Below are positions 20,042 through 42,721 of a DNA stretch of 64,000 nt, in pieces (position 1 is the first letter of the stretch; every line of letters begins with the position of its first letter). The stretch lies in contig JAUHYI010000011.1 of assembly GCA_030426385.1 (NCBI GenBank), forward strand, positions 1 to 64,000, written 5' to 3'. The position numbers were made by a program, and so were the translations under genes. This DNA comes from Phycisphaerae bacterium (GTDB lineage: Bacteria > Planctomycetota > Phycisphaerae > Phycisphaerales > Phycisphaeraceae). The notes beneath the pieces were generated by a model that was not told where the DNA came from, made no database searches, and was given only the letters and a program-made list of their open reading frames with translations.

Positions 20042-20908
20042 TCATTGCGAAATTTGCAATAAACGCAGCGCATTGCCGCGAAGGATTTTGCCTTTGTCAT
20101 CGTCCGAAAGTTTGGCGCCATCAATGCGAGCCCGTTGGGCTGATGCGCTATAGAGCGGGGTATCGGTGCCAAAGAGAATACGTTCGACGCCGATCTGTTC
20201 GACGGCCCATTCGATCAGCCCTGACATCATGCTTTGGGCGCTGGAGGTGTCGGCATAGATGTTGCCATGCTTGGCTTGTTGAACGGCACGCACCTGATGC
20301 GTGGGATCGCCATCAAATCCGTTGCCGATGTGAGCGAGTATCAGGCGGGCGTTGGGGAAATCGTTGGCCGCAGGCACAAATGATTCGGGCATGCTGTTGG
20401 GATCGCCACTGTGCGTAAGAATCGTAGCGTTGCATTCAGCCGCAAATGCAAGCAGATCGTGAGCGTAGCGGGCGATTGGATAGACGTGTTCTTCGGGGTG
20501 AATTTTGATGCCCACGCACCAGGTTTCCTGGAGCATTTCTCGGGCTTGGTCGTATGTGGCGGGTCGCGTGGGATCGACCAGCACCCATCCGAGCAGCCCG
20601 GGGGTCTGTGGGATTATGCGTGCCAATTCTTCGTTGCCTGCGACCGCGTCGGCTCGGCCTCGCGGCATCAATCCACTCAACGGCGAAACGACTGTCCATG
20701 CAATATTGCATTGGGTTGCCCGGTCAGCGACTGTTGACGCATCCGCGCTCATGAAATCGGTCAGCAGCGGTTCTGTTTCATCGGTGCGTCGGAGGTAGGG
20801 GCCATAGTGACCATGAACGTCAATGGCCTCGATGGCATGCGATCGGTCGTAAGTAGATTGATCAGAAGGCGGCTGGGATTTTGTCGGCTGAGTCGAGTTA
20901 GTGGTCAT
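20042..20908 (-). CDS. Metal-dependent amidohydrolase-family hydrolase
   Basis: A 288-residue TIM-barrel protein of the amidohydrolase-2 family (COG2159 type). It has the metal motif HGH (32-34), KIHPEEH with a following His, ILTHSGD, LILAHIGNG and the late Asp motif ILFGTDTPLYSASAQRARI. Members hydrolyse or decarboxylate small carboxylates; here it may open a lactone or deacylate a sugar acid, by context only. Its promoter has an exact TATAAT (20916-20921) and TTGTTG (20939-20944) 17 bp apart, placing the transcript start at or next to the ATG. Palindromic operators shared with the divergent GntR gene lie in the same region. Confidence 0.8.
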   Translation of the reverse strand: MTTNSTQPTKSQPPSDQSTYDRSHAIEAIDVHGHYGPYLRRTDETEPLLTDFMSADASTVADRATQCNIAWTVVSPLSGLMPRGRADAVAGNEELARIIPQTPGLLGWVLVDPTRPATYDQAREMLQETWCVGIKIHPEEHVYPIARYAHDLLAFAAECNATILTHSGDPNSMPESFVPAANDFPNARLILAHIGNGFDGDPTHQVRAVQQAKHGNIYADTSSAQSMMSGLIEWAVEQIGVERILFGTDTPLYSASAQRARIDGAKLSDDDKGKILRGNALRLLQISQ

Positions 20909-20915: not shown

Positions 20916-20944
20916 ATTATAATGCCTTTTAATTTTTACAACAA
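20916..20944 (-). promoter_or_regulatory. Sigma70-type promoter of the amidohydrolase gene, likely leaderless
   Basis: TTGTTG, 17 bp, then TATAAT on the minus strand. Only seven bases separate the -10 box from the ATG at 20908, so the message would begin at the start codon. A weak operator-like word (20920-20930) overlaps the spacer. Confidence 0.65.
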
Positions 20945-20981
20945 GACAAAAAGTCCTTGACTTTGCGGTTTTTTATTATTA

Positions 20982-20992
20982 ATATGGCATTT
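20982..20992. promoter_or_regulatory. Putative GntR operator, ATATGGCATTT
   Basis: One of a set of 11-bp words with the consensus AAATGNCATTT; one mismatch here. It lies between the divergent amidohydrolase and gntR-type genes. See the sites at 21085, 24163 and 24181. Confidence 0.55.
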
Positions 20993-21076
20993 AAAGTTGT
21001 CCGGTTGTTGATTATTCGCATGTGGCAGAGATGTGCCTCTGATTTGCCGAGTCGCCATTGAGCGAAAAGAAATGGC

Positions 21077-21104
21077 TTGCAATAAAATGTCATTTAATTA
21101 AGAT
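21077..21104 (+). promoter_or_regulatory. Promoter of the GntR-type gene with embedded operator AAATGTCATTT
   Basis: TTGCAA (21077-21082) and TAAGAT (21099-21104) are 16 bp apart. The perfect palindrome AAATGTCATTT (21085-21095) fills the spacer, so a bound repressor would block polymerase. This suggests autoregulation. Confidence 0.6.
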
Positions 21105-21202
21105 ATGACCCAGTGTAGTGAGGCTGTTAACCGTTCCGGGCAGGGCGTGTTTTCAGCGAGATGACAATGGGTAAATTGACTATTTAGTGAAGGATCATGC
21201 CT

Positions 21203-21916
21203 ATGAATGCGCAAAGTTCCATGACCGTTCCATTGACGGATAAGTTGGCTCGCAAAATCCAACAGCATATTGTTGAGGATGGATTGCAGGAGGGGGATTT
21301 TTACTTGACCGAAGAGCAGGTCTCGCAGCAGTTTGGGGCTTCGCGTCGAGTGGCGCGTGAAGCGATCGGCCAGTTGCGGACGCTTGATGTGTTACGTGCT
21401 CGCAAGCGCAAGGGATTAATTGTCGGTCAAGCGGATCCGGTGCGTTTGTTTTCGAGTGGGTTGGAATTGTTCGGGCGGAACATTGGTAATTTCAGAGAGT
21501 TGGCGGCGCTGCGTTATACGATTGAAGTGGGGGCGGTCGATCTGGCGGTAAGTCACGCAACCAAGGAGCAACTGGATCGGTTGACCGCAGCGGCAGAAGC
21601 TTATCGTCTTGCTGTTGACGGAACGATTGATGTGGAAGGATCAGATCGTGCGGAAGTTGATTTTCATGGCGTGATGCTTGAATGCACTGCCAGTTCAATG
21701 ATCACGAGCATGCAGGCAGTATTGCTCGAGTACATGCAGAGTTCGCCGTATGACCGCATGGATCGACAAGAGATGAGCGTTTCTGCGGTCGAGCATGAAA
21801 TGATTGCCGTCGCCATGCAATTGCGTGATCGTGAGCGCGTGCGGGCGCTGGTACGCCAGCACTTGGATAACACAATCAACTCAACGTCTGACGATCCCAA
21901 TCATGCGGGATCGTGA
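21203..21916 (+). CDS. FadR-family GntR transcriptional regulator
   Basis: A 237-residue regulator. A winged helix-turn-helix fills residues about 8-72 (LTEEQVSQQFGASRRVAREAIGQLRTLDVLRARKRKGLIV). The C-terminal all-helical FCD domain (about 90-225) has metal-binding His in DFHGVML, VEHEMI and RQHLDN, so it likely senses a carboxylate such as a sugar acid. The ATG at 21203 is preferred because AAGGA (21190-21194) is eight bases upstream; the ATG at 21197 would be too close. It heads a run of three genes with the sialidase-like and aldolase genes, and is divergent from the amidohydrolase gene. The palindromes AAATGNCATTT are its likely targets. Confidence 0.9.
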   Translation: MNAQSSMTVPLTDKLARKIQQHIVEDGLQEGDFYLTEEQVSQQFGASRRVAREAIGQLRTLDVLRARKRKGLIVGQADPVRLFSSGLELFGRNIGNFRELAALRYTIEVGAVDLAVSHATKEQLDRLTAAAEAYRLAVDGTIDVEGSDRAEVDFHGVMLECTASSMITSMQAVLLEYMQSSPYDRMDRQEMSVSAVEHEMIAVAMQLRDRERVRALVRQHLDNTINSTSDDPNHAGS

Positions 21917-21953
21917 TGTCTTCAATCATTCAACATGACATGTGGAGTCGTTT

Positions 21954-23141
21954 GTGATTAGTCCTGACGTATTTCAATTTGAACCAATCAGTGATGGATT
22001 TATTCATCGTTGTTCGCCAGGTGCGAACAAGCCCGTGGCGATGTGTTCGCGCTGCGTGGCATTGGACCGGGATAATCTGGTTGCCAGTTTTATGGTGCAT
22101 ACGGATTTGATGGTCAACGATTTTGCGCCGGTGTTGTGCCGTTCGCAAGATGGTGGTCAATCATGGAGCGACCCCGAGCGAATCTGGCCTCATCTGGAAT
22201 CGTCATTCAGTATTTCAGGATCGATCAGCCAGTCGAGTCTTGACTCGAAACATTTGTTTTATTACGGATCGCGTTGCCCGATCGATACGCCTGGCGAAGC
22301 ATCGTTTGATCCGACGCGTGATGCGATCAAGGACAATCAATTGATCTGGGCTGAGTCGACCGATGGTGGCAATCATTGGACGGACCCGATGGTGATCGAA
22401 CGACCGATCCCCGGATCATCCGAAGCGCCGGGCCCGATCTGTTGTCTGGCCAACGGCGATTTGATCGGATGCTACGTGCCGTACAACACGTTCGATCCTG
22501 ATGTGCAGGTGCAACGCAATCAGGTGATGGCCATGATTCGTCGTCACGGCGATCAATCGTGGACGCATGCACGTGCCCTCGATTTTAAGACACCCAGTGA
22601 CAGTGGTGCCGAATCCTGGGTTGTTCAACTGACAAATCGCCTTGTTTTTGCGGCATCCTGGCATTTTAGTTACGACCAAGGCGTCGATAGGCCAAATGCT
22701 TGTGCGGTGTCTGAGGACGGCGGCGAAACCTGGGGGCCTACATGCAGCACGGGCATCATGGGCCAATCGTTGGCCTTGTTGCCACAAGCTGAAGGCCGAG
22801 TGCTCATGGCATACAACCAACGCAATCATGAGCGTCCCGGCATCGGTCTGGCATTGGCCCAACCGAGTGCGGATGGTTTTGGATTGCTGGCCGACACCAT
22901 GATCTGGCGCGCCGAACGCAATACACGTGCCGATGTGGTGGGCAATCAGTCCATGTCCGATTTTGCCAATTTTGCTTTCGGTGAACCATCACTGACGGCG
23001 CTGACGGATGGTTCAGTGCTTCTGACATTCTGGTCGCTGCAACCACAAGCCGAAGGTATTCGCTATTTGCATTTTCAAGTCAATAAATCGGTAGAACGAT
23101 CATCAAGTGATCGCTCGCCATCCAGTGAGGTGCTCGCATGA
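21954..23141 (+). CDS. BNR/sialidase-like six-bladed propeller protein
   Basis: A 395-residue protein without a signal peptide. It has three Asp-box repeats (SxDxGxxW): SQDGGQSW, STDGGNHW and SEDGGETW. The start is set at GTG 21954, because GGAG lies six bases before it. Sialidases of this fold release sialic or similar nonulosonic acids, but many planctomycete members of this group are exo-alpha-sialidase-like proteins of untested activity, and lack of a signal peptide argues for a cytoplasmic oligosaccharide substrate. Its stop overlaps the next start by four bases (ATGA), so translation is coupled to the aldolase. Confidence 0.8.
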   Translation: MISPDVFQFEPISDGFIHRCSPGANKPVAMCSRCVALDRDNLVASFMVHTDLMVNDFAPVLCRSQDGGQSWSDPERIWPHLESSFSISGSISQSSLDSKHLFYYGSRCPIDTPGEASFDPTRDAIKDNQLIWAESTDGGNHWTDPMVIERPIPGSSEAPGPICCLANGDLIGCYVPYNTFDPDVQVQRNQVMAMIRRHGDQSWTHARALDFKTPSDSGAESWVVQLTNRLVFAASWHFSYDQGVDRPNACAVSEDGGETWGPTCSTGIMGQSLALLPQAEGRVLMAYNQRNHERPGIGLALAQPSADGFGLLADTMIWRAERNTRADVVGNQSMSDFANFAFGEPSLTALTDGSVLLTFWSLQPQAEGIRYLHFQVNKSVERSSSDRSPSSEVLA

Positions 23142-24097
23142 CAATGACACGACTAACATCTGAAACACTTCATGGGGTATGGTTGGCATTACTCACGCCA
23201 TGGACTGACGCTGACGAGTTGGATGAGTCATGTTTCGCTGACGAAATTCGTGGCTTGGCTGGGGTGGGTTTGCATGGCGTGTACACCGGAGGGACGACCG
23301 GTGAATTTTACGCGCAGGATAATCTCACATTCGAACGTATTACTAAAATCGCATGTCATGAAGCGCATGCCTTGGACATGCCGATTCAAATCGGTTGTAC
23401 GACAACCAACACGCGTGATACTCAACATCGGATTCGCTTCGCGGTTGATGCTGGTGCCGACGGCATCCAGGTGGCGATGCCTTACTGGCTTGAACTGAAT
23501 GATCGTGAAGCGATCGGATTTTTTGAAGGCGTTGCGAAAGCGGCGCAGGATGTGCCGATCATCATGTATCACACATCGCGTGCTAAGCGTAAACTGCCGC
23601 CGACGTTAATTGGTCAGATTGTCAAGCGTGTTCCAACGCTCATCGGACTCAAAGACAGTTGCGATGCATCGACATTGCGACAGATTCTGCAAGAAGCTGG
23701 CGACGTGTCGATCATGGGTGGTGAGGCAGAAATGCTGAGCCAGATTCCTGCAGGCGGGCGCGGTACGTACAGCGCTATCGCGGGGATGAACGCTCGACTG
23801 GTACTCGACCTCTATGAGGCTTGCGTTGCTGGTCGGACTGCTGATGCCCGTCCGCTGCACGATGCGATCACGCACATGCTCGCCGAGGTCATCATTCCGA
23901 TGTACGAAGCAGACGGCCTTAATGACTCGGCGGTCGATCGTTTATTCCGTGAATTAGGTGGCGGCCACGTGGGGCTGCGATGTCGTAAGCCTTATCTGTC
24001 ACCCACAGCCGAACATGTCGATCGTCTGGCACGGTGGTGTACCGAACATGCATCGATGTTACTGGCTTTGGAGCCCCCGCTAACGGGCAATCGTTGA
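23138..24097 (+). CDS. DapA/NanA-family aldolase (dihydrodipicolinate synthase superfamily)
   Basis: A 319-residue class I aldolase barrel. The hallmark residues are present: GGTTGE (51-56), catalytic Tyr144 (IIMYHTS) and Schiff-base Lys172 (LIGLKDS), 28 residues apart as in the family. Such enzymes split or make 2-keto acids, including N-acetylneuraminate, 2-keto-3-deoxy sugar acids and dihydrodipicolinate. It is coupled to the sialidase-like gene, which makes a sugar-acid lyase role likely and lysine synthesis unlikely. Exact substrate open. Confidence 0.85.
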   Translation: MTMTRLTSETLHGVWLALLTPWTDADELDESCFADEIRGLAGVGLHGVYTGGTTGEFYAQDNLTFERITKIACHEAHALDMPIQIGCTTTNTRDTQHRIRFAVDAGADGIQVAMPYWLELNDREAIGFFEGVAKAAQDVPIIMYHTSRAKRKLPPTLIGQIVKRVPTLIGLKDSCDASTLRQILQEAGDVSIMGGEAEMLSQIPAGGRGTYSAIAGMNARLVLDLYEACVAGRTADARPLHDAITHMLAEVIIPMYEADGLNDSAVDRLFRELGGGHVGLRCRKPYLSPTAEHVDRLARWCTEHASMLLALEPPLTGNR

Positions 24098-24455
24098 GCC
24101 TCGGCATCGTTTGGGAGAGGGCGGAATGACATGTCAGGTAAATTGTGAAAAAGAATCAAATAAAATGCCATTTAATGTTGAAATGCCATTTAATTATGGT
24201 AAAGTGAGACCAGCCAAAATCGAGATGGTGAAACCGGGTCCAAATCACCGTCATCTCAATCCGGTTCAATCCGGCTCAATCCGGCTCATCGCGGTGAAGC
24301 GGCCAACCCTTCTCAGTCCCGCCCATTTAAGACAAATCTGCGTATGACCTTCGAATCCATCAGATTCGAACGTGCGAACCAATTCTTGTTTTGACAACGT
24401 AAGCCGTTTGATATCTACACCGGACCAAAAAGGTCCACCATTTTGGAGAAGAAAA
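24098..24455 (+). promoter_or_regulatory. Gene-free control region with twin operators before the PEP-CTERM gene
   Basis: About 360 bp without a gene. It holds two perfect palindromes AAATGCCATTT at 24163-24173 and 24181-24191, 18 bp centre to centre. TTGAAA (24178-24183) and TAAAGT (24200-24205) 16 bp apart form a likely promoter overlapped by the second operator. A CAATCCGG triplet repeat follows (about 24257-24288). The twin sites suggest that the GntR-type regulator at 21203 controls block B. Confidence 0.6.
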
Positions 24456-25199
24456 ATGAAAAGTTTATTTACCGCATTAACAGCACTGGGTGTTTTGGCA
24501 TTGAGCGCGACCGCCTGGGCCGATTATTCCACCGATTTTGAATCGCCCTTTGCCACCGGTGATTTGAGTGTGGCACCGTGGTCGACCGTCGCTGCTGGTG
24601 CGAATCCGGCCGGCAGCATTGTGAGCAGTACGATCGATACCGCGAACAACAATACCAAGGTGCTCCATATCCCCGGCACCGCTAGTGCGACATGGGTTGA
24701 CACCGGAGCGGGCGTGGAAACGGGAACGTTGGCGTTTGATCTATTGATGAGTGGTGTCGCGCCGCACCCAACGTTTACACTTATCGCTGGTGTCTCGGAC
24801 GTTTCGGGTGGTCACGCGGTCCGCTGGGCGATTAGTAATGTGGCAGGGGGAGCCGATATGGATTTGCGTATTTATGATCCGGGCCTGGGGACCACGGCGG
24901 TGGTGCTGACCGATTTTATGGCGAAGGACAGCTGGACCAATATCAAGATAGATTTCAATTCAGTGACCGACACGTATGCATTAGCGGTCAATGATGTGCC
25001 TCAATTCACCGGTCAACCATACTGGGGCAGTATCAGTGAAATCCATCGTGTGTATTGGGGTACTTCCGCATACACCGACCAGATCGATAACTTCAGCTTG
25101 CTCTCGCCTAGTCTTGAGATCCCCGAGCCAGCGAGTCTGTTGCTTCTGGGTGTGAGCGGTTTGATGGTGGCTAGTCGTCGCAAACGAGCTACGGCCTAA
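24456..25199 (+). CDS. PEP-CTERM sorted exported protein
   Basis: A 247-residue protein; ATG at 24456 with GGAGAA six bases upstream. It has a signal peptide ([22 protein letters not shown]), a beta-rich region resembling a concanavalin/LamG-like fold (about 25-215), and the sorting tail [26 protein letters not shown]: Pro-Glu-Pro, hydrophobic segment, basic end. PEP-CTERM proteins are processed by exosortase and sent to the surface or biofilm matrix. It is followed directly by a pseudopilin and then by giant glycosidase genes. It is the first of three such pairs in this window. Confidence 0.9.
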
Positions 25200-25266
25200 A
25201 TCTAATGAAGGCCACGGTAATTCTTCGTGGTTCGGAGTCGGAACCTGGATTCACAAGACACTGAAG

Positions 25267-26010
25267 GTGAGGACATCATTGAACATGCCATGCAAGCATA
25301 CCTACCATATCGGTCGAGCGTCACGCCAAGGTTTCACACTGATCGAATTACTCGTGGTCATTTCCATCGTGGCGATGATGATTGCGATTCTGTTGCCCGC
25401 ATTGTCCAAGGCCAAGGAGGTGGCGCGGTCGGCCCAGTGCTTGAGCAATCTTCGGCAGCAGGGGATTTTCAATCAGGTGTATCTGTCGGATAACAACGAA
25501 TGGTTTGCTGCGATACCGGGAGCGTTCGATGGAGGGGTAGAGGGCGTGATTATTTGGTTCTCTCCATACGTGCAAGGTTCGGGTGGTGATGCTTATGCCA
25601 CGTTGCAATGTCCGACCATGTATGAACATGGTGAGGCCGCCAGCTATATCCCGCCGGTCGCTTCGGATATCACGAATTATAAAGGCTACACCGTTTTTCC
25701 ACTCGTCATGCCAGGCACGCCTGCGGTATGGGATATCGGCTACGGGCGTAATGCCAATATCACAGCCGGTCGCTTGAATGCGAAGACGTGGCTTGTTCCA
25801 TCGAAAACCGGACTGATCGCGGAAGTCTCACTGCTTTATTGGCGTAACAGCTACCCGTTGACAGGGGTCCCGGCTGACTTGCGACAGTCGTGGGCTAACC
25901 GTCATGCACTCGATTCCGCCAACGTGGTGTTCATGGATGGCCACGCCGCCGCCACCGGTACGCCGTTTCCCCATGCCTACGATTCCGACTTCATCCTTGA
26001 TCCCGAATGA
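25267..26010 (+). CDS. Type II/IV-like pseudopilin with C-terminal DG motif (DUF1559-like)
   Basis: A 247-residue protein, GTG at 25267 (an ATG at 25285 is also possible). The prepilin cleavage motif [19 protein letters not shown] leads a single hydrophobic helix, then [18 protein letters not shown] and a large beta-rich globular part. It ends with [15 protein letters not shown], the H-X9-DG-type box of planctomycete DUF1559 relatives. It should be cut by a prepilin peptidase and placed in the membrane, perhaps in a secretion pseudopilus. No assembly ATPase or secretin is near. It pairs with the PEP-CTERM gene upstream. Confidence 0.88.
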
Positions 26011-26237
26011 GCGGATCTGTTTGGCATGGCATGCTACGCCATACCACCTGACTCTGTCAGTCGCACCCACCGAATTGTTTTTAAACCACTGCCGTTGATT
26101 CGGCTCATCACACGCACAATATATCGTTGACTGATTGCTCGTGGATCACTGTGTTTGAATGACGCGAAGATTTGCGTCTTAGTCACAGTGATGCTGGCGG
26201 GTGGCGGTTAACCATGCCGCAGACTAGAGGACAAAAC

Positions 26238-29200
26238 ATGATTTGTATGAGAAGTTTAACGCGAGTTTGTTCTACGGTCGCGGTCGATCCTTATCGTCAA
26301 TACATGCGTGGTCGCTTGGCGATGCTCGTGGCGCTTCTGTTTTATCTGATGGCGGTCGTCGCGCCATCTGAAGGCAAAACATTATTTCAAGCGCAATATG
26401 ATCAGTCGCACGTTGATGCTGATTATGCAGTTGGTGATACAACTGCGGCACCGATTGCCTATCGTGAGAATCATGGCGAATGCAGCATGTGCAAGCAGAC
26501 GCATGACGGGTATCAATTGCCGCGCACGATTCGCACGGGACGATTTGGCGGTGCGTTGGATTTAACCAATGTTAATCACAACATCACCTATGTTGATAGC
26601 AAAAATTTCAATCCGATCAAGGGTACTGCCGAACTTTGGTTTGTGATCGATGATGATCCCGAGGGCTCGTATCACCCGCTGTTTGGCTGGTTCAGTCCGC
26701 CGATATTGCCGGACAAACTGGAACGCGACCGTGCTCTGTATGTGCATATCAAGGGCAATCAGATAACACTGACGATGTTTACGCCGCACCAGTCGTCGAA
26801 GGTTGTCGTGGTTGATGGCTTGGAGGAAACGGGTAAGTGGCATCACCTGGAAATCAACTGGGACTGCACCGATGGCGATGGGCAATCGCGATACAACGTG
26901 TATCTGGATGGCCAGATCGCGATTCGCATCAGCGATGGCGAAGCGTTAGTTGACGATGCTGATACTGCAATCAGGGAAGATGCGAACAAGGAAAACCCCG
27001 GGAGTGTTGAGGGGAGAGTGGGAAAAGTGGCGAGGGTGGGGCAGGTGGGGAGGGTGCATTTGGGGATATGGGATTCGGGATGGGGTCATTTTCTGCGCGG
27101 GCGGATTGATGAATTTCGGATCACCGATCAGATTGAGCATGAGGATGATTTTGCGCCGCCCAAACGTGCATACGCCATGCCTGGCACATCGGCTGGCATC
27201 GCGATGACGTATCTGCAGGCGCGTTCTGATTTGCAGTTACTCAAAGATCGGCTCGCCGTTTTTGATCAGACTCACAAATTGTTACAGGGACAAGTTGAGA
27301 TCCGTGCCGATCTGATGCAGGTTAAAGCCGACAGTGCGCGTGTACTCGAACAGATGGAGCCATCGATCAAGGCGGTCATTGCGCTGTTTCGTCGACAAGC
27401 CCAAGATGCAGGAATGACGGAAGAAAACTGGTTAGCCGATTTCGCATCGCAGACGAAGCATGACGAGGGAGATCGTTCAAGCCATGCGGATATTCAATCG
27501 ACGTTGGATGAATCCGCCGATGCTGTGCGATCGGCACGCTATGCGATGGTCAACGCATTGGGCAAGTTGTACACGCTCATTCCCGACATCTATAACCAAA
27601 CGATCGTGAACCTCGGCTATCTCAGAGACGAGCAAGAAAGTCTGCAGCGCGCGACCCACTACATTAAACACATCGGGGATAAGTCGGATGATCGTTGGAT
27701 TAAGCAGCAGTCAACGCGATCGCAGCAGGTTTCTCGGCAGGCAGAGCAGGCGATAGACAAAGTCAGTGAATCATTGGAAAAAGTTTGCCGTGATTTTTAT
27801 GCATTGTTTAAAGGCTCTGCCATTAACCAGGCCGAACCGATCCCGGCGTTGTCTGGGTTTGCCAAAAATCCGAACAAACGGAAACAAATCGAAGCGATGA
27901 TCGAGCGTCTCAGTGCCGATGGTTTGGTTGTGGCCGACGCGCGAAAAGCCATTGCTGACACATTTAATGATTGGCAGGCTGACCCGGTTTTGCAAAAACA
28001 GTTTCCTGATTATCGCGTGGTGGTGCCCGCTCCATTGCCGCCGGTCTCCGTGGCGCCTGACGGTGCATTGAAGCGCGTGATATTCGCAGGCCCTGGCTTT
28101 GGTCGTGTGAAAACATTGTTGTCGTTGGGATTCGACACCATGCGGGAAAGCGGGGCACATGTGGAATGGACCGCGGAAGATCAGTTTGACGATACGCCCA
28201 ATTCTCTGGCGGTGAACCAATGGGATGAGCATCAGGTTCCTCTTTCAACCACCGTTTTGCATTACGCCATCGGTGCGGGAATGTATCGACCGCGTTGGTT
28301 CAATGCCGAAGAGGATATGGATTACTATCTGAGGCCCGGCCCGCATAACGTGAACCAGGGTGGGCTTGAGTTCCGCCATCCGTTGGTGCGCGACATGATT
28401 CGGCGTTACCTCGAAGAAGCCGCGCGCATCAATGCTAGTCGGCCTTACACGTTTATCTATAAAGGGCCTTGGGAAGCGCATCCATACACCGGTGCCAGTG
28501 TTCGCGTGCCCGGTGAACGCACCGTGGCATTTAAGGAACTTGGATACAGCAACTATGCGGTCAAGGCATTCAGGAACTACCTGCAAAACAAGTATGAAAG
28601 CATCGCAAATTTGAATCAGATCTGGCGTACATCGTATGCGAGTTTTGAGGCGATCGAGCCACCCGAAGCTCACATCCGTGCGTTTATCGTCCGTAAAAAT
28701 CAACGCGGGCAAGAGGTGCATATTCCGTTCTTTCCCAGCAAGCGCGTGCGTGCCACGCCGTTAACGTATGAGTTTGAACGCTGTCGCAAGGACCTGTATG
28801 TCGATTATCTGTCGGACAGTTACCAAGCTATCCGACGGGGCGATCCTCAACATCCGTTGGCGTCATCAACGTCCGGCGGGATCATGGATGAGATTCTAGT
28901 CAATGGACTCGATGACCTGCTGATGCTTGAGAATGGGGTGGACATGTGGGGCAAACATCCGTCGGGTGGCATTGGTTGGTCGGATTCACCCTACATGTGG
29001 GGACTCAATCGTTATTTCAAAAAAACCCTGGTCAGTCTGGAGTATTACGGTTGGGGACAGGAAGAAATCGGCAACGATTTCTGGCCCTCATTCCAACTGG
29101 CTAGCGATACCAGTAGTGAACTGATTTACAATGCCAGCCGACGTGACATTTGGCATGAGTTGAGTTGGGATCGCCGCATGCTCGTGTTTTACTGGACACA

Positions 29201-30287
29201 AAAGCTGGTGGAAATGCAGCAGGGTGTCAGTAAATTCAAGTCGCCATTAGTCCGGTCGTTCGCGACGATGATTCCAGTGGTTAAACGTCGCACCGAACAG
29301 ATCAACGAACAACTGTTCGATGTGCCGGTGATGAAGCCGCGGATCGGCGTGTTGCATTCGGGGCCGTCAAACATCAACGCATTTCCAACGAACAACACGC
29401 AACGCGCAGCCGACGACATTTTTAATCGCCTGATTGCCAAACAATATCATTTTGGAATCGTGCCGGAAAAATTTATTGTTGAAGGTCGCGACACACTGGA
29501 CAATTACGATGTAATCATCTTGCCCTATGTGCAGTATTCGGCTGATGGATTTGATGACATGCTCAAATCATGGGTGCATAACGGCGGGACGCTGATTGCG
29601 GCAGGCCCATTTGGTTTGTACGACCAGTATGGTTTCGATATTGAACACGGACTGCGAAGCGAAGCGTTGCCTGATTATGAAATATCGTATCCAACGCCGG
29701 GTGATTACGATGTCTCATCGCGATGGGAAGCAACACGTAAGGGACGCCGGGTTAAAAAAGATTACATAAAGACGACCTATGGCCGAGGCACCATTCTGTT
29801 CACGCTCGATGGTCGGGCTCTGCGCAATACAGGGGCGCTGGCGACATCGGCCTACGTGGGCATTGAAATCGGCGGCGACAATGTGCAAGGTAAAACGGCA
29901 TCGACCCGGCGTCGTGAAACGTCTCAGTCAGATGGCATTCGTCCATTGGCATTGCCGTCAGACGACCAATTGTCCGAACCCGTCAAGGCTTTTTATGACG
30001 TGCTCTCACAAGCCACGCAGCGCAAGGCGTGGGTTAATCATGGCAATGTAGAAATGGTGATACGCCAGGAAAAACCTGGCGAGGCACTGTTTGTGTCGCT
30101 GCTCAATTGGAATTATCGCGAGCCGTTGAAGACGCAGGTTATGGTGCAGGGCGAATACGACCATGTGGTGGATTTATCCATGCCGGGTGGGTTTCCCGTG
30201 CCAGTGACAATCGAAAAAGGGATGACGATTATCCCTGTGGTGTTGGGGCCGGGTGAGGGACTGATGTTGAAATTGCAATCCCAATAA
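26238..30287 (+). CDS. Giant secreted LamG + GH42-like glycoside hydrolase
   Basis: 1349 residues; the start is set at ATG 26238 because AGAGGA lies six bases upstream. A late signal segment (about 25-47: LAMLVALLFYLMAVVAPSEG) precedes a LamG/concanavalin domain (about 50-290, ending GRIDEFRITDQ). A coiled-coil linker follows (about 310-560). A GH42-like barrel spans about 600-1000 (FRHPLVRDMIRRYLEEAARI; YESIANLNQIWRTSYASF; LMLENGVDMWGKHPS). A glutamine-amidotransferase-like domain (about 1030-1160: DVIILPYVQYSADGFDDML...GGTLIAAGPFG) and a beta end follow, as in beta-galactosidases. A Gly/Val/Arg-rich insert in LamG (about 255-275) is coded by a G-rich repeat. Likely an exported galactosidase-type enzyme. 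Confidence 0.75.
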   Translation: MICMRSLTRVCSTVAVDPYRQYMRGRLAMLVALLFYLMAVVAPSEGKTLFQAQYDQSHVDADYAVGDTTAAPIAYRENHGECSMCKQTHDGYQLPRTIRTGRFGGALDLTNVNHNITYVDSKNFNPIKGTAELWFVIDDDPEGSYHPLFGWFSPPILPDKLERDRALYVHIKGNQITLTMFTPHQSSKVVVVDGLEETGKWHHLEINWDCTDGDGQSRYNVYLDGQIAIRISDGEALVDDADTAIREDANKENPGSVEGRVGKVARVGQVGRVHLGIWDSGWGHFLRGRIDEFRITDQIEHEDDFAPPKRAYAMPGTSAGIAMTYLQARSDLQLLKDRLAVFDQTHKLLQGQVEIRADLMQVKADSARVLEQMEPSIKAVIALFRRQAQDAGMTEENWLADFASQTKHDEGDRSSHADIQSTLDESADAVRSARYAMVNALGKLYTLIPDIYNQTIVNLGYLRDEQESLQRATHYIKHIGDKSDDRWIKQQSTRSQQVSRQAEQAIDKVSESLEKVCRDFYALFKGSAINQAEPIPALSGFAKNPNKRKQIEAMIERLSADGLVVADARKAIADTFNDWQADPVLQKQFPDYRVVVPAPLPPVSVAPDGALKRVIFAGPGFGRVKTLLSLGFDTMRESGAHVEWTAEDQFDDTPNSLAVNQWDEHQVPLSTTVLHYAIGAGMYRPRWFNAEEDMDYYLRPGPHNVNQGGLEFRHPLVRDMIRRYLEEAARINASRPYTFIYKGPWEAHPYTGASVRVPGERTVAFKELGYSNYAVKAFRNYLQNKYESIANLNQIWRTSYASFEAIEPPEAHIRAFIVRKNQRGQEVHIPFFPSKRVRATPLTYEFERCRKDLYVDYLSDSYQAIRRGDPQHPLASSTSGGIMDEILVNGLDDLLMLENGVDMWGKHPSGGIGWSDSPYMWGLNRYFKKTLVSLEYYGWGQEEIGNDFWPSFQLASDTSSELIYNASRRDIWHELSWDRRMLVFYWTQKLVEMQQGVSKFKSPLVRSFATMIPVVKRRTEQINEQLFDVPVMKPRIGVLHSGPSNINAFPTNNTQRAADDIFNRLIAKQYHFGIVPEKFIVEGRDTLDNYDVIILPYVQYSADGFDDMLKSWVHNGGTLIAAGPFGLYDQYGFDIEHGLRSEALPDYEISYPTPGDYDVSSRWEATRKGRRVKKDYIKTTYGRGTILFTLDGRALRNTGALATSAYVGIEIGGDNVQGKTASTRRRETSQSDGIRPLALPSDDQLSEPVKAFYDVLSQATQRKAWVNHGNVEMVIRQEKPGEALFVSLLNWNYREPLKTQVMVQGEYDHVVDLSMPGGFPVPVTIEKGMTIIPVVLGPGEGLMLKLQSQ

Positions 30288-30359
30288 TTTTTGAGACCAA
30301 GCAGACGTGCTACAGGATGGCACAGACGTTTTATTTGACACGCAAATGGAAATGATGAC

Positions 30360-31220
30360 ATGATGCCAGAATTAATTGTACCGAAGATGTTTCATGCGGC
30401 ACTGGATGACACCATCGAAGTGCTTGAGGAAATTCACGAAAAGCGTGATCGCATTGACTCAATATTTGAGGTCGAAGTGATGCGGATGTTGCAAGACTAT
30501 CATCGTCGTTATGGCGCGGTGTTTACCTTGTACCTGTTTTATGAAATGGGTGATTTCAATTTGTCGATGATGACCGATCGGTTTCGCGAGGAATGGATTG
30601 CCAACAGCGATTGGTTGCGATTGAGTTTTCATTCACGCACCCGGGTGCCAGCGATTACGGATTTCTATCGGTATACCGAGCGTGATTATGATACAGCCAA
30701 GGCAGATTTTGAATTGATTAAAGGTGAAATTCTGCGTTTTGCGGGCGAGCCGGTTTGGGATAATTATCCCCGGACACATTTCTGGTCAGGTAATCAGGAG
30801 ACCTTGCGAGCGTGGCAAGATTGCGGGATTTCCGGGACATTTTTCAGCTATCCCGGGTATTCCGCGTATGATTTATCACAGGAATATCTGGAAAAATTGT
30901 GGGGCAAGGATTATTGGATTGACCCGGACCTGTCTCTATTGCTTATTACGACGAATGTGAAGTTGCCATGTTTAAGTGTGGCTGATGTGGCTGAGCGTTT
31001 ACAGGCATTGCATCAGCGCGACGCGCGTATTCTGGAAATTTTTGCAGACGACTACAATCTGGTAGAGCTTGCCGAGCATATGGAATCCGCGCTGGCGTTT
31101 GCGGTGGAGCATGATTATCAAGGCATGTTTTATGACCAGGCATTTGGAGAGGTCGATGGTGTTCGTTCAGTGTCTGATGCGCAGGATGTTGGTGGAGCTG
31201 GTGCCGTGACTTCGTCGTGA
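30360..31220 (+). CDS. Polysaccharide deacetylase-like protein
   Basis: A 286-residue protein without a signal peptide. It resembles the NodB-like (CE4) barrel: an early acidic motif (FHAALDDTIEVL, about 10-21), FTLYLFYEMGDF, LRLSFHSRT (His near the second metal site) and NYPRTHFWSGNQETLRAW, followed by a strand ending GTFF. The canonical HxxxH motif is not fully clear, so activity is uncertain. It may deacylate sugars or act as a hydrolase of unknown type. It lies between the giant GH42-like gene and a propeller hydrolase, all co-directional. Confidence 0.55.
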   Translation: MMPELIVPKMFHAALDDTIEVLEEIHEKRDRIDSIFEVEVMRMLQDYHRRYGAVFTLYLFYEMGDFNLSMMTDRFREEWIANSDWLRLSFHSRTRVPAITDFYRYTERDYDTAKADFELIKGEILRFAGEPVWDNYPRTHFWSGNQETLRAWQDCGISGTFFSYPGYSAYDLSQEYLEKLWGKDYWIDPDLSLLLITTNVKLPCLSVADVAERLQALHQRDARILEIFADDYNLVELAEHMESALAFAVEHDYQGMFYDQAFGEVDGVRSVSDAQDVGGAGAVTSS

Positions 31221-31358
31221 CGTTGGTGATGGTTGTGATGATCTTGATCGTCATGCATGACGTGTGTGTTTCGTGTTTGTTGAAGCATCACGATTGAAAG
31301 CACACCATTAAATCAGCGGGCGTATCATCGCGCCGATTTATATTGATGGACCCTATCT

Positions 31359-32990
31359 ATGAACCCGAATGTGTATCGACAGAAAAATTTGTTCATCGAT
31401 GACTCGTTGGTGATCGAATCACGTGGTCTCAAGCGCACCACGAACCAGGCGATCAAGCATCCCGAGCCGATCCTGGTGCCAGACGCACCGTGGGATAGTA
31501 AAGACGTTTTTCATAACGGGCGCAACGTGTTGTACGACGCACGGGATCGAAAATTCCGCATGTGGTACACAGTGTCGGAAAAAATGAAAGGCTGGGGTGC
31601 CAGTGACAATAAAACCGCCTATGCGGTTAGTGATGATGGCATTCGCTGGGAACGCCCGGTGTTGAACATGATTGAGCATCATGGCAGTAAAGCGAACAAT
31701 TACATGTTGCCTGCCGATCTGGAAACGTTTTCCGCATCCATTCTGATTGATCCCAGTGATTGTGACAGCCGTCGTTACAAAATGATTTTTGCTAGCGGGA
31801 GCCATTATGGTTCCGGACGTGTCACGGATTGGGCCAAGCAACATATTCCCCTGAACATAGCCTGTTCAGACGATGGAATTCACTGGCATCGACCCAGGTA
31901 CGTTAATCCGGTTTTACGCGGTGTGAGCGATGCGGTGTTCATGTGTTTTTATGACGTGCATCGACGCAAGTACCAGTTGTATACGAGGCGCACGCCGAAT
32001 CTGCCGCGTGATGTGTCGTTGTATGAAAGTTTTGACCTTGTGAATTGGGAGGATTGCGGTCGCGTGCTGGTGGCTGGCGATGAAATGGATCCGTCAACGC
32101 TATACAACATCCATGGTGTGACTGTGCTTGATTATGAAGGTTACCGATTGGGACTCATCAACACAATGCACCTGCACCCAAAAAGCGAAGAACTCGGCGT
32201 GTTTCAGGAGCCGCCCGCGAACTATCCTGACGCAGACAAGATTGGTGTGATGGATGTGCAGTTGGGCTATTCAATCGACGGTCGCACATGGCACCGAGCG
32301 CATGATCGTTCGCCGGTGATACCGGTGGGGAATGCGGGCGAGGCAGACGAGGGGATGATCCTGTTGCAACAGAACAGTCCGATCGTGGTGGATGGAGATA
32401 CGTACATCTATTACTGCGGATGGCGCAGTGGTCATACCGCGTGGTCACATGCGAACATGCTGGCGGGCATCGATGGCGATGTTTCGCAAACAGTCGCGGG
32501 GATGTTGGCGGTGATGCCGGAGGATCATTGGGTGTCGTTCGACGCGGGTGAACAGGAGGGCGAGTTGTTGGCCGGACCCTGGCGTGAATTGCCGCGAGCC
32601 ATGTGGGTGAATGCTGATGCGCAAGGCGGTGCGATTCGCGTGGAACTGGTCGATGGCTATGACCGGGCGATTCCAGGATTCAGTCGTGAAGACAGTGTTC
32701 CAATCATCGCGAACGGCAAAGACCAGGTGGTGCGATGGAAAGACGATCGCATGCCTGTGGAAGTGCAGGATGCCTATCGTGGTGGTTTTATGGTTCGATT
32801 CATCATGCAACAGGCCAAGCTGTATTCCTGCACATTAGGCCACGACGATGAAGATGGTGAACGCCGTCGTTATGGCGACAACGTGAAATGGAATGAGGGA
32901 TTGTTTCATCGCAACGGGCAGTGGGGAAGTAGCAGCAATACACCTGCCGGTGGCTTGGCGCCGATGGTGCGTGGTTTACCCAACTGGTGA
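31359..32990 (+). CDS. GH43/GH32-like five-bladed propeller protein
   Basis: A 543-residue protein without a signal peptide. It starts MNPNVYRQKNLFIDDSLVIESRGLKRT, a form typical of planctomycete GH32/GH43-clan relatives. Propeller repeats include FRMWYTVSE, AYAVSDDGIRWERP, LNIACSDDGIHWHRP and VQLGYSIDGRTWHRA. A C-terminal beta-sandwich (about 400-540) resembles the second domain of GH32 enzymes. The clan cleaves fructans, arabinans or xylans, but the key acidic residues are not secure by eye. Part of block B; the next gene starts 64 bp later. Confidence 0.65.
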   Translation: MNPNVYRQKNLFIDDSLVIESRGLKRTTNQAIKHPEPILVPDAPWDSKDVFHNGRNVLYDARDRKFRMWYTVSEKMKGWGASDNKTAYAVSDDGIRWERPVLNMIEHHGSKANNYMLPADLETFSASILIDPSDCDSRRYKMIFASGSHYGSGRVTDWAKQHIPLNIACSDDGIHWHRPRYVNPVLRGVSDAVFMCFYDVHRRKYQLYTRRTPNLPRDVSLYESFDLVNWEDCGRVLVAGDEMDPSTLYNIHGVTVLDYEGYRLGLINTMHLHPKSEELGVFQEPPANYPDADKIGVMDVQLGYSIDGRTWHRAHDRSPVIPVGNAGEADEGMILLQQNSPIVVDGDTYIYYCGWRSGHTAWSHANMLAGIDGDVSQTVAGMLAVMPEDHWVSFDAGEQEGELLAGPWRELPRAMWVNADAQGGAIRVELVDGYDRAIPGFSREDSVPIIANGKDQVVRWKDDRMPVEVQDAYRGGFMVRFIMQQAKLYSCTLGHDDEDGERRRYGDNVKWNEGLFHRNGQWGSSSNTPAGGLAPMVRGLPNW

Positions 32991-33054
32991 TGCACTTGTG
33001 ACGGCTTGGCGTTGCTATTGATTGGCCAGGGGAATCCAACGACGAAAGGTTTTT

Positions 33055-36000
33055 ATGATACGGATTTTGTTTTGCAGTTTGATCTGGTTTGCGATGAGCG
33101 GTTTGCTATTGTGGACGTTGCCCGCTGCGCATGCGGATCCCATTGTGTTACCTCGTTTTAATCCATGGCACACGGATCCGGTGTATTCCGAATTGCGTAT
33201 GGATGTGGTGACCGCGCACACGCCTTGGGCCAAACCTTATGCCGGCCGGCCGATGCGTGTGGTGGCGATTGCACCACGTTGGACACAGCGCGACAGTGTG
33301 GAATTGATGCAACGATTCGATTTTAGTATCACACCAATAATGACATTGCGATCGCATACGTGGGGCGATGAGAATGCACCGCATTATGCGTGGATTGCGT
33401 ATGGCACCAAAGCGCTCGTAACCGAGCGGGCGTTGGACGCATTGGCAGATGGGCCGGATGTCATTGTGCTGGGCTGGCTCAACACATCGATTATCCCAGC
33501 GGAGGTTGAGCAGAAAATTTTTGATGCGGTGGCAGGGGGTGCGGGATTGGTGGTGTTCAATCCGAAAGTGTTGTCCGAAAAATTGCAAGCCGTGATTGCA
33601 GAGAGTCGGTTGGTCGAACCTGCCGTTGGGTATAGGTTGGTTGATGGATTTGCATCGCGACAGTTGCCGCCATTGATGACAGAAGCGCGGCCATTGGTTG
33701 GTGAAGGCGTTCGATTGTATGAAACGCCGTCGCTCGGGCGAATTGCCGTGGTTGATTATGGTCGGCCTCTGGTGCCGTATCCCCAGGTGGGTAGCTGGTC
33801 GAGTAGTTACCTGACACCACCCTTGATTGATTCTGATGCGACGCGCGATTTTCATCACGATTATTACACGTCGTTTGCGGGCCGGTGCATCTTGTGGGCA
33901 GGCAAAAATATGCCACAGGTTGCCATGACCGGTTGGACTGAATTGTCCAACGCGTTGGTGGTTGAGAATAATGGAATCACACTGGGACGATTGCAAGTGG
34001 TCGATGCACCAGCGGGCGCTGTTGTCGAGCTGACTATTCGCGATGACGGTGGTGTTGTGGAACAGCGTGTTACTACGCCTGTGGGAACGCATGGGTTTAT
34101 TGATTTGTCGAGCGGGCCGATCAAAAGTGGCGATCATTTTGCTGATGTGATTTTGCGTCGTGCGGACGGTCATGTGCTGGACTGGGGAACGCATGCGTTT
34201 ACCACCAGTACGAGTGTGCAGATCGTTTCAATCGATGTGCCGAATCAGGCAGTGGTTGATCGCCGATCGGTTGCGATTCGTGTGACGAATGCGGGTGAGG
34301 TCGATGGTAAGGAACTGGTTGTCGAAGCGACGGACACGCACGGTCGATTGGTATGGTCGGATACAAGGTCCGCGGCGATGGACGTGTCGTTCGAGATGGA
34401 TTTGTCAGGCGCATTGGCATCACACTGCGAAGTGCGTGTGATGTTGCGAGGTGATGGCCGGGTGCTGGCTGAATCGCGTGCGGATGTTTTGTTACAGGCA
34501 GTGCATCCTCATGTTGATGAATTTGAATTCGGCGGATGGGCAAGTACGAGTCGTGATTTTGTTATGCGTCAAGCCGCTGGGGTGATGGTGGATCATGGGT
34601 TAAGCGGTGGGATTGTTGTTGGTGACATGGATGCGTGGGCGCGGATGAATGTCCACCCTATTGCATACATCACGAGGTACTATCCGAAAAATCCACCCGG
34701 TCGAGGTTTGATGGAGCGCATGCCATGTCTGACTGATCCAGAATTTCTGGCACAGGAAAAAGACAAACTCACCAAAGCGGTTTTGGAAAAAAAGCGTTAT
34801 TCCCCTGCGGGTTACACGCTGGGTGATGATCAAGGCATGATGCTGACTTATCAGGATGCGTGTATTTCCCAAACATGTCTGGCTGCGTTTGGACAATATC
34901 TGGCCAAGCGATATGAAACAATTGCGGCATTGAACGAAGCGTGGGGAACTGGCTACACCGCGTTTGATGAGGTGATGCCGCTGTCGTATGACGATGCGTT
35001 GTCTGATGGGCATTACCCGCGCTGGGCGGATCATCGCATGTACATGGATAAGCTGTTTGTGGATACGCATGAGTGGGCTCGAGATGTTGTGCGGGAGGTG
35101 GATCCCGGCGCGCATGTCGGATTCGAAGGGCCGTTGAAGGATGACAGTTGGTATGGGTATGCATGGAAGGCAATTCTGGAACGGATGGATCTGATGGCGG
35201 TCTATCCGAATCCGTGGAAGTTTGACATTGTTCGTTCATTCAAACCGGCGCACATGAATTTCGGCGCATGGTATGGCGGTTATCCGATGTATCAGAACGA
35301 GTATGACCTGCGATCGTATCCGTGGTTCATGCTTTTTAATGGTTGCAATAACTACCTGTTTTTTCGAATGTACGGCGGTTCGGAAGCGGGCCATCCTGCT
35401 GAGGGGATTGGGCCCGACCTGCGCCCGGCTCGCAGTCTGACAGTGACCACGCAACAAGTACATCGCATTCAACGCGGGATCGATCGATTGGTGTTAGGAG
35501 CGACGTATCAGGATGGCGGGGTTGCGGTGATGCATTCGCGGTCGAGTGTGCATGCAACGACTGTGACGCCGGACATTCCCATGCGTGATTTCAAAACGGA
35601 TCCCGCGTGGTCCGAGTATCTGGCCGAGCCGAACAGTAAATGGGCGCTGAACACCGAAGCGGCGTTGCGGTTGCTCGACGATCTGGGCTTGCCGTTTGTG
35701 ATGGTTGACCGGACGGATGTGGCGGCCGGTGCGTTGGAGAAACGCGGGGTGCGGATGCTGGTGTTGCCGATGGTGTTGTCGCTATCGGATGCGGAGTCGC
35801 GAGCGATTCGTGATTTTGTGAAATCCGGCGGAATTGTAGTGACCGATGTGCGCCCCGGTGTGTTTGATGAGCATATTCAATGGCGATCGACAGGCGCGTT
35901 GGATGATGTGTTGGGTATCAAGCGTAATGACGTGGTCAATGCGCCGCTGGTTGAGCAATGGATCGATGTGGCGCAAGGCGAACAGCGATTGGTTAAACGT

Positions 36001-36909
36001 GATAGCGGAGCGATGATGCCGGAGATGGCGGGTCAAGATGTGGTGGTTGAACAGCGAAGCGGGGTGGGTTTGCCGATGCCGGTGGACGCGACGGTGTCCG
36101 TGGATGATGGGCAAGCCATGGCCAGCACCGATGCGGGTGTGCCGGTTTTCATTGCCAACGAATTTGGGCGCGGTCAAACGTTGTTACTGAATATGGCGTT
36201 GCAACATTATGTGACGTTGCGTGCTGCGGGGCAGGGCGGTGCGTTGCGTGAAATGATTAACCCATGGTTGGAACAGGCGGGATTGCCACGAGAAATACGA
36301 TTGGATGCTGTCGGTGATCATGATGCCAGAGCACGCCTGTTTCCCTATACCCGCGGTTCGATGCGATTGATCGGGCTGTTGCGCCCGCATAAACGGTTAG
36401 CCGATGAGACCGATGCTTTTGTTGACCTGATGCCGCGTCCGTTTGTGTTGCATGTTGGTAAGCCGGGTCACGTGTATGACATTATCAATCGAACATACCT
36501 GGGCTATCGCGACAGTTTGGATCTGAGCATCGAACCAGCCATGCCGTATGTGTTTGCCGTCCTGCCTTATCGCGTGACCGGGGTGCATGGTGATGTGACG
36601 GTTGTTGGCGTTGATGAAAAAGCATCGCAGCCGCTGCGCGGCATAACATTGAACGCCGCGGTGCAGGCTTCGAGCGAGTCGATAACCGGCGAACATGTAA
36701 TTCACGTTCAGGTGACCGATGCTCAAGGTCGACATCGTCCGGAATATGACGTGGACATTCTGGCCACGGACGGCAAGGCGACGCATGCGATCACGTTGGG
36801 ATTCAACGATCCGTCTGGCGTTTGGACATTCGAACTCGAAGATGTGGCCACGGGTACGACCAGTGAAGTAACCGGCATCGTGCCATCAATTGATGGTGAA
36901 TCCAAATAA
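33055..36909 (+). CDS. Giant secreted GH42-like glycoside hydrolase
   Basis: 1284 residues; ATG at 33055 with GAAAGG five bases upstream. Signal peptide MIRILFCSLIWFAMSGLLLWTLPAAHA, likely cut after AHA. An N-terminal amidotransferase-like fold (about 60-300: DVIVLGWLNTSIIPAEVEQ; GGAGLVVFNPKVL), beta-sandwich domains (about 310-500), then a GH42-like barrel (about 500-850): YTLGDDQGMMLTY, FGQYLAKRYETIAALNEAWGTGYTAF and HVGFEGPLKDD, and a second amidotransferase-like domain (LPMVLSLSDAESRAIRDFVKSGG). It shares its plan with the 1349-residue enzyme upstream (YxSIAxLNxxW, GGxxVxxxxPG motifs), so the two may be distant paralogues. Substrate probably a beta-galactoside-type chain. Confidence 0.75.
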   Translation: MIRILFCSLIWFAMSGLLLWTLPAAHADPIVLPRFNPWHTDPVYSELRMDVVTAHTPWAKPYAGRPMRVVAIAPRWTQRDSVELMQRFDFSITPIMTLRSHTWGDENAPHYAWIAYGTKALVTERALDALADGPDVIVLGWLNTSIIPAEVEQKIFDAVAGGAGLVVFNPKVLSEKLQAVIAESRLVEPAVGYRLVDGFASRQLPPLMTEARPLVGEGVRLYETPSLGRIAVVDYGRPLVPYPQVGSWSSSYLTPPLIDSDATRDFHHDYYTSFAGRCILWAGKNMPQVAMTGWTELSNALVVENNGITLGRLQVVDAPAGAVVELTIRDDGGVVEQRVTTPVGTHGFIDLSSGPIKSGDHFADVILRRADGHVLDWGTHAFTTSTSVQIVSIDVPNQAVVDRRSVAIRVTNAGEVDGKELVVEATDTHGRLVWSDTRSAAMDVSFEMDLSGALASHCEVRVMLRGDGRVLAESRADVLLQAVHPHVDEFEFGGWASTSRDFVMRQAAGVMVDHGLSGGIVVGDMDAWARMNVHPIAYITRYYPKNPPGRGLMERMPCLTDPEFLAQEKDKLTKAVLEKKRYSPAGYTLGDDQGMMLTYQDACISQTCLAAFGQYLAKRYETIAALNEAWGTGYTAFDEVMPLSYDDALSDGHYPRWADHRMYMDKLFVDTHEWARDVVREVDPGAHVGFEGPLKDDSWYGYAWKAILERMDLMAVYPNPWKFDIVRSFKPAHMNFGAWYGGYPMYQNEYDLRSYPWFMLFNGCNNYLFFRMYGGSEAGHPAEGIGPDLRPARSLTVTTQQVHRIQRGIDRLVLGATYQDGGVAVMHSRSSVHATTVTPDIPMRDFKTDPAWSEYLAEPNSKWALNTEAALRLLDDLGLPFVMVDRTDVAAGALEKRGVRMLVLPMVLSLSDAESRAIRDFVKSGGIVVTDVRPGVFDEHIQWRSTGALDDVLGIKRNDVVNAPLVEQWIDVAQGEQRLVKRDSGAMMPEMAGQDVVVEQRSGVGLPMPVDATVSVDDGQAMASTDAGVPVFIANEFGRGQTLLLNMALQHYVTLRAAGQGGALREMINPWLEQAGLPREIRLDAVGDHDARARLFPYTRGSMRLIGLLRPHKRLADETDAFVDLMPRPFVLHVGKPGHVYDIINRTYLGYRDSLDLSIEPAMPYVFAVLPYRVTGVHGDVTVVGVDEKASQPLRGITLNAAVQASSESITGEHVIHVQVTDAQGRHRPEYDVDILATDGKATHAITLGFNDPSGVWTFELEDVATGTTSEVTGIVPSIDGESK

Positions 36910-36942
36910 CGCCATGCGTATCAATCGAAGTGGAACCCACCC

Positions 36943-38487
36943 ATGTTAAACCCCATGATTCAAGTTGAAGATATTCGTGCGTTCGATGCGTCGCTAAAAC
37001 GCCGTATCGAGCGATACCAGGAAAAGCTGCGCGACTGGCTGGCGCCGCACCGATTGACGTTGGCCGAGGCGCGTGTGCATAAGGTGCTGGTACCGATGGT
37101 GGGGGTGTACACGCCGGGTTGGCAGGCATTGCCCGCGTGTTCATGGGAATATGTGGAACTGATTACGCATGAGGGTTTGGTGGGTACCGGAGAATGGCCA
37201 GTCGATTTGCCCGACGCGTCACGTCAAGTGATTGAGGAACTTCGGCAAAATCCGGGCCGCAATCTGTTGGGTTTAGAATTGGAAGAGCCACTGTTCATGG
37301 CATGGTGGGATCTGGTGGGGCAGGTGCTGGGCAAGCCGTTGCACAAGCTATGGGCGGAGTTGTTTGAACGAGGATTTGATCCGCCGGACCGTGTGCCGAT
37401 GGCAGCGTATACATGGCAACGTTTCCCCGATGCGAACGGTAATGATGCGGTGACGTTTGAGAGTTGGCCTGAACATGCGAAGATGCGCGCAGATCAAGGG
37501 TGGCCTGCGATCAAGATGTCCCTGTGTGCGTATCAACCTGAAGACCATATCGAACTGATTCACAATGTGCGTCAGGCGATCGGTCCCGATGTACGCTTGC
37601 GTTTCGATGCGCACGGTTCGTGGAATTTTCAGGAAGCGCGTCGGGTGCTGCACGCGGTTCAGGATTGCAATATTGAATTGGCAGAGCAACCGATCAACGC
37701 GCTGTTGCCTCAGCGATTTTTTCCCGATGGTGAAACGATCCCGGATGCATCGCGGGGCAGCTACCAGTCCGAATACTATTTTCGATTGATGACGCAATTG
37801 CGGCATGAACAGATTATTCCATTGAGCTGTCACTGGTGGACGCCGCCGATTATTCATCCGCGCGGAGCCAGCGTGCAAAGCAATCAATGGGAACCGAACT
37901 GGCACATGATGCAACGATACGATGCTGCAGATGTGTCGTCATCGGATATCTGGCTGGGCGTGTGGGGATTCTGGCGCATTTATGAATTGGCCAAGTTCAT
38001 GGGGATGAACGTAACTTGTCACAGTAATTTTGAAATGTGCCTGCAATTGTATTTTCGGTGTGCGATGACAACCGCGCTCATGGTGGATCAGGCGTCGGCG
38101 GGTTTATACCTGGGTGCCACGCCGCGGACGAGTCATCCGATTGACAACGAAACCATCCAGGTATCCGACGATGTGATTGAGGGTGGGCAATTCGATTGGA
38201 CGGGCGGACATGTGCAACTGACCGATGCCCCGGGGCATGGGTTGCGATTGGATCCGGCACGACTGGAAAAATATCGTTACACCGAGGAGGCCGTCCAGCC
38301 ACACCGTCAGTATGCGCGAAAAATTTATGATCATTACCAGTTGGATCGGCCTCGTCGCACCACGCAGTCGGGGTGGCCCAAGCCATCGGGGCCCGAACAT
38401 TTTGATCGGCAGACCTATCCCTACGCAGTGTCTCACATTCTTCAGGCCCAGGATACGCAAGACGTTGACACGCAGTTGAACCGATAG
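36943..38487 (+). CDS. Enolase-superfamily (mandelate racemase-like) dehydratase
   Basis: A 514-residue protein, longer than the usual 370-450. It keeps the barrel with Lys191 (AIKMSL), metal ligands Asp222 (RFDAHGSW) and Glu248 (IELAEQPI), a third acidic position in SSSDIWLG and a catalytic-type His360 (TCHSNFEM). This pattern fits sugar-acid dehydratases of the mandelate racemase/glucarate type, which make 2-keto-3-deoxy acids. That product is what a DapA-family aldolase (42722) would cleave. The start is 33 bp after the giant GH42-like gene and the stop is one base before the next start, so it is in an operon. Confidence 0.8.
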   Translation: MLNPMIQVEDIRAFDASLKRRIERYQEKLRDWLAPHRLTLAEARVHKVLVPMVGVYTPGWQALPACSWEYVELITHEGLVGTGEWPVDLPDASRQVIEELRQNPGRNLLGLELEEPLFMAWWDLVGQVLGKPLHKLWAELFERGFDPPDRVPMAAYTWQRFPDANGNDAVTFESWPEHAKMRADQGWPAIKMSLCAYQPEDHIELIHNVRQAIGPDVRLRFDAHGSWNFQEARRVLHAVQDCNIELAEQPINALLPQRFFPDGETIPDASRGSYQSEYYFRLMTQLRHEQIIPLSCHWWTPPIIHPRGASVQSNQWEPNWHMMQRYDAADVSSSDIWLGVWGFWRIYELAKFMGMNVTCHSNFEMCLQLYFRCAMTTALMVDQASAGLYLGATPRTSHPIDNETIQVSDDVIEGGQFDWTGGHVQLTDAPGHGLRLDPARLEKYRYTEEAVQPHRQYARKIYDHYQLDRPRRTTQSGWPKPSGPEHFDRQTYPYAVSHILQAQDTQDVDTQLNR

Positions 38488-38488
38488 C

Positions 38489-42629: not shown

Positions 42630-42721
42630 GTCAATCACAAGTGGTTCCATAAGCCCATCAATGCCAAGCCAGACAATGTCAATCAAACAAGGTCGCTTTG
42701 TATAAATAAGCAGGTATGTCC

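Follow-up and report, generated by a model that had tools for sequence, protein, structure and literature searches.

A conserved palindrome as the predicted non-standard operator of a planctomycete GntR-FCD regulator with likely targets in one local cluster

The window analysed here, a whole stretch of 64 kb, belongs to a genome of 5.19 Mb (177 contigs, 94% complete). It carries a gntR gene, a divergent amidohydrolase gene and several same-strand genes downstream:

20042..20908, minus strand: amidohydrolase-2 family enzyme, divergent from gntR (Pfam PF04909, 7.5e-21)
21197..21916, plus strand: gntR, GntR-FCD (FadR-subfamily) regulator of 239 aa (Pfam GntR 5.5e-8, FCD 6.3e-18)
21942..23141, plus strand: BNR/sialidase-like protein, next after gntR (Pfam PF13088)
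23138..24097, plus strand: DHDPS/NAL-family aldolase, overlapping the BNR gene (Pfam PF00701, 1.3e-30)
24456..43675, plus strand: block B, a presumably co-transcribed same-strand run and candidate target of sites O3 and O4 below (ORFs, Pfam)
43679-44941: PBP/AraC (XylR-like) regulator at the end of the block B gene run (Pfam/ORFs)

According to Pfam and the ORFs, block B comprises genes for a PEP-CTERM protein, a pseudopilin, two GH42-like proteins and two unclassified products, followed in our inventory by an enolase-superfamily dehydratase-like protein, a GH38/57-like protein, an SDR and a second DHDPS-family member. The order PEP-CTERM, pseudopilin, glycosidase occurs twice in the window (24456-26010 and 45026-46838), and a lone pseudopilin gene is found at 62588-63448. 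The aldolase, dehydratase-like, SDR and amidohydrolase families would fit oxidative breakdown of sugars or sugar acids. The aldolase before block B is KdgD/NanA-like, yet it scores far below every equivalog cut-off. A sialic-acid pathway was considered and rejected, the DHDPS-family gene matching NanA no better than several alternatives; assignment of a substrate via the amidohydrolase was also abandoned, its sole solved relative being weak.

The product of gntR combines an N-terminal GntR winged HTH (PF00392, 32.8 bits against a cut-off of 27) with a C-terminal FCD domain (PF07729, 65.8 bits against 24.3), and its recognition helix reads S49-R50-R51-V52-A53-R54-E55. Its best solved relatives are NanR and PdhR. 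In the alignment with NanR the effector site is kept, E153, H157, H200, H222 and R106 corresponding to NanR D172, H176, H222, H244 and R128; these are the Asp/Glu, the three His and the carboxylate-binding Arg of the metal-binding FCD effector site. Since this metal site and the Arg are retained, a carboxylate is a plausible effector, and sugar-acid sensing by this regulator is plausible too. Searches of the family (51 genomes), the order sample (400) and the class sample (397) gave no close orthologue, and the relatives at 35-41% identity are mostly from Planctomycetaceae. The same genome encodes a 39% identical GntR paralogue with the helix SRV (L027, G000 C157:452-1078), which precedes a FAD-oxidoreductase-like gene and has a different upstream palindrome.

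The initial annotation had described three perfect and two degenerate copies of an 11-bp palindrome, placed only in the control regions around gntR and before the PEP-CTERM gene, and had taken them to define a GntR regulon. Indeed, exact copies of AAATGNCATTT occur at 21085, 24163 and 24181, three in the 64 kb against 0.11 expected, and at least three were reached in 0 of 100 shuffles of the window. All three are intergenic, so the proposed restriction to the two control regions holds within the window. The whole genome contains five exact sites, window included; the two outside the cluster (C119:6667 and C175:46023) are situated within long ORFs and have no TAA flanks, and no further intergenic exact site was found in the genome. 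In 20,000 Markov simulations of the two intergenic regions (646 bp), more than one exact site never appeared, and a single one appeared in 0.5% of runs. Since three sites fall within these 646 bp and two in the remaining genome, scattering through coding DNA, named beforehand as an argument against an operator, is not what the genome scan revealed.

The two degenerate copies fared unequally. The copy at 20982, ATATGGCATTT, carries one mismatch and is significant as such, its region holding two sites with at most one mismatch against 0.06 expected. On the other hand, the copy at 20920, TAATGCCTTTT, departs from the motif at two positions, and one of these is the A in the inner ATG.CAT core; its region holds three sites with at most two mismatches against 0.5 expected, and by its sequence alone this copy does not exceed chance. 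This copy, and the fact that AT-rich intergenic DNA inflates matches, would suit the view that all copies are chance or mere AT-rich promoter sequence, but the shuffles, the simulations, the whole-genome count and the footprint described below strongly disfavour that view and leave it hardly credible.

The sites and the promoter-like elements around them are arranged as follows:

20921-20916, minus strand: perfect TATAAT of the putative amidohydrolase promoter (by inspection), overlapped by the 20918-20932 site
20944-20939, minus strand: weak -35 TTGTTG of the same promoter (by inspection)
20918..20932, minus strand: doubtful operator, TATAATG-C-CTTTTAA in plus-strand reading, two mismatches
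20957-20985, toward gntR: promoter-like TTGACT-17-TAATAT (promoter scan, 9/12)
20980..20994, plus strand: predicted operator O1, TAATATG-G-CATTTAA, one mismatch
21077-21104, toward gntR: weak promoter TTGCAA-16-TAAGAT before gntR (by inspection; below scanner threshold)
21083..21097, plus strand: predicted operator O2, TAAAATG-T-CATTTAA, exact motif
24161..24175, plus strand: predicted operator O3, TAAAATG-C-CATTTAA, exact motif, just upstream of the -35
24178..24205, plus strand: promoter-like TTGAAA-16-TAAAGT with TG before the -10 (promoter scan)
24179..24193, plus strand: predicted operator O4, TGAAATG-C-CATTTAA, exact motif, covering the -35 and spacer

By inspection, O2 sits in the 16-bp spacer of the weak promoter before gntR, and O1, a probable operator, overlaps the -10 of TTGACT-17-TAATAT. 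On the amidohydrolase side (20906-20944), the TATAAT lies 7 bases from the ATG, which suggests a message that would be leaderless.

Before block B, TTGAAA-16-TAAAGT is the sole plus-strand promoter-like site from 24000 to the PEP-CTERM start. O4 is an 18-bp tandem duplicate of O3 with identical 14-mers; the two therefore possibly do not represent independent events. Control of block B through O3/O4, claimed from the outset, is likely in view of two perfect tandem sites over this lone promoter-like element. Alternatively, GntR could govern only itself and the BNR/aldolase operon, O3 and O4 being a duplicated leftover or a stop to read-through out of the aldolase gene, and block B having other promoters. 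The tandem duplication would agree with this, as would the failure to find a terminator-like sequence from the aldolase gene to the PEP-CTERM gene, the single site per genome, before gntR, in Gimesia, and a promoter-like element within block B (30335, 10/12), which could drive the later genes independently. However, the perfection of both copies and their position on the only promoter-like element ahead of block B are typical of a true target, and we consider so narrow a control unlikely. An arrangement with activation of block B by GntR from O3 and repression of the gntR promoter appears less probable still: the place of O3, upstream of the -35 (24178), would allow activation, but O4 overlaps the -35 and spacer and would block polymerase, and the sites before gntR, in the window and in Gimesia, are inside the promoter. 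Given that the sites lie within promoters or overlap them, we infer that GntR represses rather than activates.

The palindrome also recurs in front of related regulators. Matches to WAAATNNNATTTW at 9/10 positions or better were observed upstream of 29 of 36 non-redundant GntR homologues, where about 10% would be expected and the reversed control gave 3. A blind scan that combined 256 half-sites with 7 spacings, 1,792 palindromic frames in all, placed AAAT-N3-ATTT first, and TKGT-type palindromes (TGGT/TTGT) upstream of the 36 homologues were not above null. The footprint is sharpest in 12 Gimesia orthologues, whose helix reads SRRIAREA (SRRVAREA in the window). There, TTGACA-16-TATAAT encloses TTAAATG-N-CATATAAT, which is invariant save for the centre, where all four bases occur, and the flanking columns are mostly variable. 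The extended site TAAATGNCATWTAA is present once per genome in all five Gimesia genomes searched, each time before gntR. A BNR homologue (26% identity, nearly full length) accompanies the SRR-type gntR in each of the four Gimesia loci that have sufficient flank, and the remaining gntR homologues have none nearby. This favours a common function for the Arg-type regulators. The conservation described here concerns the site before gntR; the family, order and class samples offered no close orthologue in which the other sites of the window could be compared.

Assignment of the palindrome as operator of the gntR product is thus well supported by these comparisons, and the predicted operator is of a non-standard type, AAAT-N3-ATTT replacing TKGT-N3-ACMA. 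It is very improbable that another DNA-binding protein reads it, for instance the PBP/AraC regulator at 43679-44941. That gene ends the same gene run, but no copy of the palindrome lies near it; moreover, across planctomycetes the palindrome goes with gntR, and the inner pair varies with the GntR helix.

Indeed, homologues with Arg at residue 51 have G.C beside the centre in 3/3 cases, against 1/26 for other residues (Fisher 0.001); homologues without Arg51 show A.T, G.T, C.T and similar pairs there, the one exception being L079, with a Thr helix yet a G.C site. Residue 51 occupies the FadR Thr46 position, i.e. HTH position 39, which a FadR-family study found to correlate with site positions 9/11, while HTH position 28 (FadR Arg35) correlates with positions 6/14 (PMC4494728). 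By our count, 9/11 are the bases flanking the centre and 6/14 are at +-4. The FadR Arg35 position is Glu, Ala, Ser or Gly in the clade of the window protein, and the matching operator position has no G. The Arg51/G.C covariation matches the contact indicated by the published analysis (PMC4494728). The Gimesia Arg-type sequences form one clade, and the tree test does not reject a monophyletic grouping of them with the window protein (p-AU 0.38); the covariation may therefore reflect one or few evolutionary events, and an independent origin of the Arg51 type, hinted at by the tree, was dropped on that account. We lean towards the view that a planctomycete-centred FCD GntR lineage left TKGT/ACMA for AAAT-N3-ATTT, the residue at the FadR Thr46 position, Arg or Thr, setting a G.C or an A.T/mixed pair.

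The footprint, the blind motif scan and the helix/operator covariation thus uphold the operator half of the proposed GntR regulon, but the other half shrinks to one local cluster. A wider regulon was sought with WWAAATGNCATTTWW, allowing one mismatch, and discarded: the genome scan returned 10 places, four of them at this cluster, and at least three of the six elsewhere (C119, C27, C42) fall within long open reading frames, with none of the six demonstrated to be in a control region. Control is predicted to extend over three candidate promoters of a single local cluster, and not over a genome-wide regulon.

The regulator shares the HTH and FCD domains of FadR, LldR, DgoR, ExuR and PdhR, FCD GntR proteins of the TKGT-N2/3-ACMA type, as well as their 3-base palindrome centre with T/A at +-2, their divergon layout and, very probably, their auto-regulation, but its site has A at -3/-4 and T at +3/+4, with no TKGT/ACMA boxes. 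The TKGT-N2/3-ACMA operator is common, not universal, in the FadR subfamily, NanR and BioR being known exceptions (PMC4494728). A missing TKGT operator thus does not exclude FadR/FCD membership, which rests on domains. NanR, the E. coli sialic acid repressor, is by sequence the nearest relative of known structure (E 5e-10); its metal-site positions align, with Glu for Asp, as does the carboxylate-binding Arg, and the neighbours of gntR include NAL-family and sialidase-like genes. However, NanR binds GGTATA direct repeats, whereas the sites in the window are single palindromes, and the window protein scores 52 bits where the NanR cut-off is 260, which likewise does not indicate orthology. BioR, which controls biotin genes, differs by its two-base centre and another half-site. 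It resembles the window protein in being of the FadR subfamily, and the half-site of its operator, TTATMKATAA, likewise lacks G (PMC4494728). Our literature search turned up nothing published on GntR operators of planctomycetes, and this phylum is absent from the taxa of the published analysis of FadR-family binding sites (PMC4494728).

Collectively, we find it probable that GntR-FCD (21197-21916) binds the palindromes and represses the promoters of gntR and block B, perhaps also that of the amidohydrolase, until released by a carboxylate. The effector-free dimer would bind AAAT-N3-ATTT inside or over the gntR promoter and block RNA polymerase, the BNR and aldolase genes behind gntR included; it could likewise block polymerase at the block B promoter, presumably for the whole run, and perhaps at the divergent amidohydrolase promoter. 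GntR would then leave the DNA once its FCD metal site had taken up a carboxylate made by the pathway. A motif fitting one repressor, together with a one-residue specificity rule, would make control of glycan genes testable in hard-to-culture planctomycetes. If true, a simple specificity code could read the operators of orphan regulators from sequence.

Upstream of gntR in two homologues with SRA helices, L039 and L069, the first site is followed at about 17 bp by a weaker one, and this pair resembles the 18-bp tandem pair at 24161-24193. In the PEP-CTERM leader, a known RNA element was looked for and rejected (no Rfam match in or near the leader; folding z -1.7). The leader does contain a near-perfect 11-base inverted repeat at 24347-24373, with a TTCGAATC-5-GATTCGAA core, present in one copy in the window and followed by no T-run, and, at 24255-24288, a 14-base direct repeat, CTCAATCCGGTTCA, three times in exact 10-base steps.
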